Shown here: piece after piece, positions 2,222 to 2,827 of the stretch
Numbering within the stretch: the first letter of the stretch is position 1
Layout of the letters: each line of letters starts with the position of its first letter
NCBI GenBank assembly: GCA_003242035.1
Contig: QBMC01000019.1
Coordinates: 1 to 42,704, forward strand
Direction of reading: 5' to 3'
Source of the DNA: Nodosilinea foveolarum
GTDB taxonomy: Bacteria > Cyanobacteriota > Cyanobacteriia > Phormidesmidales > Phormidesmidaceae
Length of the DNA stretch: 42,704 bases
Translations under genes and position numbers: made by a program
The notes under the pieces: model-generated
Seen by the model: only the letters and a program-made list of their open reading frames with translations
Databases searched by the model: none
Told to the model about the DNA's origin: nothing

Positions 2222-2327
2222 GTTGGTTTAAAATGATCTATATATGGGAGTCACTCTATACGTCAAATACGTTAGAGTTATTAGCTTAAATTTACCGTTC
2301 ACTTAACAAATCATCGTTGCGTTCTTT

Positions 2328-2344
2328 AAGAGGAAAAAACAATC
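2328..2344 (+). promoter_or_regulatory. Shine-Dalgarno and rare ATC start of infC
   Basis: AAGAGG at 2328-2333, an 8-nt A-rich spacer, then ATC at 2342-2344. The in-frame TAA at 2327-2329 overlaps the Shine-Dalgarno sequence, so translation cannot begin further upstream. The arrangement fits IF3 autocontrol through a poor start codon. Confidence 0.7.
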
Positions 2345-2827
2345 GCTAAGAAACCACTAATCAATCAACAGATTCGAACCGCACAGGTTCTCCTGATTGA
2401 CAATGAGGGTACAAATCGGGGCCTAACAGATACCTCAGAAGCTTTAGCACTCGCTAAGTCGGTCAAGCTCGATCTGGTAGTGGTCTCACCCGACCAGGAA
2501 GTGCCTGTTGCCAAAATTTTGGACTACGGTAAGCACCAGTACCAGAGCCGTAAGCGCCAGAAGCAAAGCGCTCGTACGTCCGTCAAAGAAGTCAGGCTGC
2601 GCCCCAATGTCGGCGACTCTGACTATCAAGTACGAATTGACAAGGCGATCGCCTGGTTAGAACGCGGCGACTCGGTTAAGTTTCAGGTGCGCTTAAGAGG
2701 CCGAGAACACCAGCATCGCGATCGCGCGACCGATTTGCTCACCCGCGTCGTCGAAGATTTGGCCAAGGTCAGCAAGGTACAGACGTTTGATCGGCGATCG
2801 CTGATGGTACAGGTCGTCCCTAACTGA
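2342..2827 (+). CDS. infC: Translation initiation factor IF-3, ATC start
   Basis: IF3 binds the 30S subunit, prevents early 50S joining and discriminates against non-standard start codons. The 161-residue product covers both IF3 domains: an N-domain with INQQIR...VLLIDNEGTNRG (from about residue 7), the PDQEVPVAKILDYGKHQY segment, and a C-domain with the VKEVRLRP stretch and the end VQVVPN. In this frame a TAA sits at 2327-2329, and no ATG, GTG or TTG occurs before GTG 2480, which would delete the conserved N-domain. ATC at 2342 lies 8 nt after a good Shine-Dalgarno sequence, AAGAGG (2328-2333), so it is the probable start. Rare AUU/AUC-type starts are known for infC and underlie IF3 autoregulation. 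The gene ends before an intrinsic terminator at 2865-2902. Family identity is certain; the exact start is inferred. Confidence 0.93.
   Translation: MAKKPLINQQIRTAQVLLIDNEGTNRGLTDTSEALALAKSVKLDLVVVSPDQEVPVAKILDYGKHQYQSRKRQKQSARTSVKEVRLRPNVGDSDYQVRIDKAIAWLERGDSVKFQVRLRGREHQHRDRATDLLTRVVEDLAKVSKVQTFDRRSLMVQVVPN

Follow-up and report, generated by a model that had tools for sequence, protein, structure and literature searches.

The Escherichia coli gene for translation initiation factor 3 (IF3), infC, starts with AUU, and an infC with an AUH initiation codon (AUC, AUU or AUA) is a textbook case. Among cyanobacteria, Fremyella diplosiphon reportedly carries a second, highly divergent infC able to act as IF3, described as infCb by Gutu et al. 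in 2013. The AUU-started E. coli gene is repressed by its own product, IF3, and a like description has been given for Streptomyces infC (PMC5472188; PMC9410913). The Streptomyces gene starts with ATC (AUC in the mRNA), and misannotation of this start has also been reported there (PMC5472188). The infC start codons of Bacillus subtilis and Staphylococcus aureus are AUU (PMC1805508) and AUA (PMC13009471), respectively. The principle of an AUH-started infC, being known from these four bacteria, is therefore not new.

We analyzed a stretch of 42,704 nucleotides from the cyanobacterium Nodosilinea foveolarum (hereafter the window), which contains an infC gene. The encoded protein matched the TIGR00168 family with 150.6 bits (cut-off 60), and the IF3_N and IF3_C domains were both found above their cut-offs. 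The scores of IF3 proteins against the window protein were bimodal, at either at least 198 bits or at most 119 bits; we refer to the group at 198 bits or above as IF3b, and to the group at 119 bits or below within Cyanobacteriia as IF3a. Phylogenetic analysis revealed a single IF3b clade (SH-aLRT 98, with a stem of 2.3 changes per site) and a single IF3a clade (97), the window infC falling inside the former and outside the latter. As judged from its place in the tree, the window infC is a divergent, second-type cyanobacterial IF3 of the monophyletic IF3b group, and not the ordinary cyanobacterial gene for which the initial annotation had taken it.

Compared with known systems, the window gene shares with E. 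coli infC its identity as an IF3 gene, the AUH start, the Shine-Dalgarno (SD) sequence and both IF3 domains, but it has AUC in place of AUU, encodes a distant protein (104 bits) and does not lie beside thrS, rpmI or rplT. In place of the thrS-infC-rpmI-rplT operon arrangement, its neighbors are genes for a DnaJ/TPR protein and for a protein resembling acyltransferases. Streptomyces infC has the same ATC codon but belongs to a separate IF3 lineage. The usual cyanobacterial infC, IF3a, is a member of the same TIGR00168 family but forms a separate clade, with an ATG or GTG start and mostly without an SD. The infCb of F. diplosiphon, which we take to be an IF3b, is the second infC of that organism, whereas the window IF3b is the only one. 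The features at the locus are the following.

Positions 2327 to 2329, forward strand: in-frame TAA, read from the sequence, closing the frame 5' of the start.
Positions 2328 to 2333, forward strand: AAGAGG Shine-Dalgarno sequence (GAGG core at 2330 to 2333), complementary to the 3' end of the organism's own 16S rRNA, GGATCACCTCCTTA.
Positions 2334 to 2341: 8-nt spacer between GAGG and ATC.
Positions 2342 to 2344, forward strand: predicted ATC initiation codon, with AUH here in 96 of 96 non-redundant relatives, 92 of which also have an in-register SD.
Positions 2342 to 2827, forward strand: divergent IF3b-type infC, with 161 codons (161 aa) and the stop codon TGA at 2825 to 2827; the only infC of the genome.
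Positions 2480 to 2482, forward strand: GTG, predicted internal Val codon 47, which automated callers would pick as the start; weak SD, unconserved as a start.

The IF3 frame is shut by the TAA, and ATC 2342–2344 sits 8 nt 3' of GAGG; from the TAA to GTG 2480, which is codon 47, ATG, GTG and TTG are absent in frame. These coordinates had been given in the initial annotation, and all of them checked. Since the first standard start is codon 47, a call confined to standard starts leaves out the 46 codons before it, and with them over half of the IF3_N domain, bearing out the predicted truncation by automated callers; counted along the frame that opens at 2330, the Pfam IF3_N match begins at residue 11. 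The 16S rRNA encoded in this genome ends in GGATCACCTCCTTA, so GAGG is able to pair with it, and the calculated duplex energy with 16S was -5.9 kcal/mol at the AAGAGG SD versus -2.9 kcal/mol at GTG 2480. A 16S search by a pattern with a TTT end returned no match, because the organism's own 16S reads CCTCCTTA.

To these data we added a comparison with relatives, 80 of them obtained from a search of genome contigs and more from genome searches; the IF3b group comprised 96 non-redundant sequences. The start was ATC, ATT or ATA in every one of them, and ATG, GTG or TTG in none. An SD core was in register with 92 of the 96 IF3b starts versus 12 of 687 internal Ile codons, a contrast somewhat flattered by the fact that the starts were partly chosen by the same SD rule; the fixed AUH position in the relatives is independent of that rule. 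Seven of the 96 starts escaped the SD rule of the script and were positioned by hand, and for one sequence (L065), whose ATC is seen in the comparison, the automatic pick was a chance upstream site. In an N-extended IF3b clade, the AUH codon and the SD both lie 11 codons farther upstream, and this joint shift points to a start codon rather than a conserved internal isoleucine. The clade (L118–L121, L123–L126 and L103) carries an 11-residue basic N-terminal extension (..RRVRPEQPN..), and the majority of its sequences are from genomes that have kept IF3a as well. The IF3b genes of Nostocaceae and other IF3a-keeping genomes, fetched with a composite IF3b query built for retrieval only, are likewise AUC-started. 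Among seven congeners, pN/pS was 0.063 over codons 2–46 versus 0.051 for the rest downstream, indicating that codons 2–46 are coding and that purifying selection acts on them with roughly the strength seen downstream. The ATC and the SD were identical in all seven genomes of the genus, which excludes a sequencing error hiding the true start, a risk the initial annotation had raised. Comparative evidence of this kind identifies ATC 2342 as the predicted codon at which infC translation begins, in agreement with the original proposal.

The IF3a genes start with ATG or GTG, rarely TTG, and mostly have little SD pairing and no strong SD, so that the conserved ATC or ATT sought among cyanobacterial infC genes is present in IF3b and missing from IF3a. 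In the sister classes of the phylum, 15 of 17 IF3 genes combine an AUH start with a strong SD; the exceptions, on long branches, are L165 (TTG with a strong SD) and L166 (ATG or GTG) (genomes G119, G392). The occurrence of AUH with an SD in most sister-class genomes, and of AUH starts in E. coli, Streptomyces, B. subtilis and S. aureus, makes the AUH start look ancestral; from its distribution and the trees, IF3b seems to have kept it, whereas IF3a seems to have exchanged it for AUG or GUG.

The window genome (99.85% complete) gave one infC match, the IF3b gene, and IF3b was the sole infC in 7 of 7 genus members. Of the 44 family genomes with a completeness of 95% or more, a set that includes the window genome, 34 have no IF3a, and assemblies of 2 to 10 contigs are among these 34; G011 was scored as IF3a-positive solely on the basis of a fragment lying where a contig ends. 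The family genomes without IF3a (G000–G005 and 28 more) depend on IF3b, often in two copies, each AUH-started where checked. Among 386 phylum-wide genomes, the best matches in Cyanobacteriia were all in the IF3a range except those of the window genome and of G016 from the same family. Five genomes (G044, G273, G286, G317 and G368) gave no infC match whatsoever, probably owing to assembly gaps. On the rpoA tree, the absence of IF3a requires four changes, and well-supported branches force only one. From gene content, we infer that IF3b has replaced the usual cyanobacterial IF3a in the window genome.

Because infC has the same anatomy here as in E. coli and Streptomyces, autoregulation offers the best explanation, and control of IF3b by its own discrimination against AUC is plausible by analogy. 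In the proposed mechanism, the GAGG SD at 8-nt spacing would direct initiation on AUC 2342, with fMet, and would keep this poor codon usable for initiation. Free IF3 would destabilize 30S complexes on AUC, as extrapolated from E. coli and Streptomyces; infC would be repressed at high IF3 and derepressed at low IF3, forming a homeostatic loop. IF3a would have switched from the ancestral AUH to AUG or GUG, as the trees suggest, and some lineages, including that of the window, would have lost IF3a and would now run on AUH-started IF3b alone. We consider this whole explanation, comprising an IF3b started at AUC 2342, an IF3 feedback loop, and an ancestral AUH with IF3a lost, to be likely. More tentatively, in cyanobacteria with both genes, where IF3a is made from AUG or GUG and IF3b from AUH with an SD, IF3b might serve as a reserve factor that comes on when total IF3 activity drops; by taking over through the loop, it would permit the loss of IF3a in lineages such as that of the window. 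An Rfam search of the infC leader yielded one sub-threshold chance match on the opposite strand and nothing else, a scan for promoters and terminators stayed at chance level, and folding of the leader gave a z of -2.2 for the window sequence only.

Initiation at GTG 2480, the alternative named in the initial annotation and the first in-frame standard start codon, would produce a 115-aa protein lacking more than half of IF3_N, although codons 2–46 are under strong purifying selection and the SD at this site is weak (-2.9 kcal/mol). GTG occupies this column in 43 of 96 relatives and is otherwise replaced by other Val, Leu, Ile or Met codons, mostly GTC, GTT, GTA or CTA; such variation is that of an ordinary Val codon and not of a conserved start, and we consider initiation here extremely improbable. 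Equally hard to credit is an internal Ile with the real start farther 5', reached through a frameshift or masked by a sequencing error. The frame is indeed open 5' in some relatives, yet an in-frame stop lies four codons 5' in 7 of 7 congeners, nothing is conserved 5' of the SD, the SD is in register with AUH, and the two move jointly in the N-extended clade.

It is also conceivable, though unlikely, that ATC is the start but brakes translation constitutively, its weakness as a codon setting a low level of IF3b with no feedback, because of poor discrimination by IF3b. A conserved weak codon by itself would give the same sequence pattern, and the E. coli IF3 residues R25, Q33 and R66, presumably fidelity-linked and located in the N-domain, are replaced in IF3b by Leu (81%), Asn (93%) and Lys (98%), respectively. 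R99, R131 and R133 are retained in the IF3b alignment, R129 and R147 mostly so, and R112 and R116 are changed (E. coli numbering); we assume that positions 25, 33, 66, 112 and 116 are fidelity or 30S-contact residues. With R25, Q33 and R66 changed, rejection of AUC by IF3b cannot be taken for granted, and its start-codon discrimination may differ from that of E. coli IF3. Such replacements occur in IF3b that can be the only IF3 of its cell. In the sister classes, position 66 is likewise Lys and position 33 often Asn, alongside AUH starts, which softens the objection for those two positions. Moreover, a weaker SD or promoter would suffice as a brake, yet SD and AUH are kept jointly group-wide. 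We favor the IF3 feedback loop acting on AUC 2342.

A literature search covering few subscription journals, and hence weak evidence of novelty, found no report of the AUH start of IF3b, of its contrast with IF3a, or of IF3a loss in the family. The analysis corrects the predicted N-terminus of an essential gene throughout a group of cyanobacteria. A natural split emerges as well: of two IF3 paralogues that often co-occur, one has a standard start and the other a discriminated one, and in this family the former is mostly gone. What start-codon discrimination contributes to IF3 homeostasis thereby becomes testable beyond E. coli, and the split could explain how a second infC compensates for the loss of the first.
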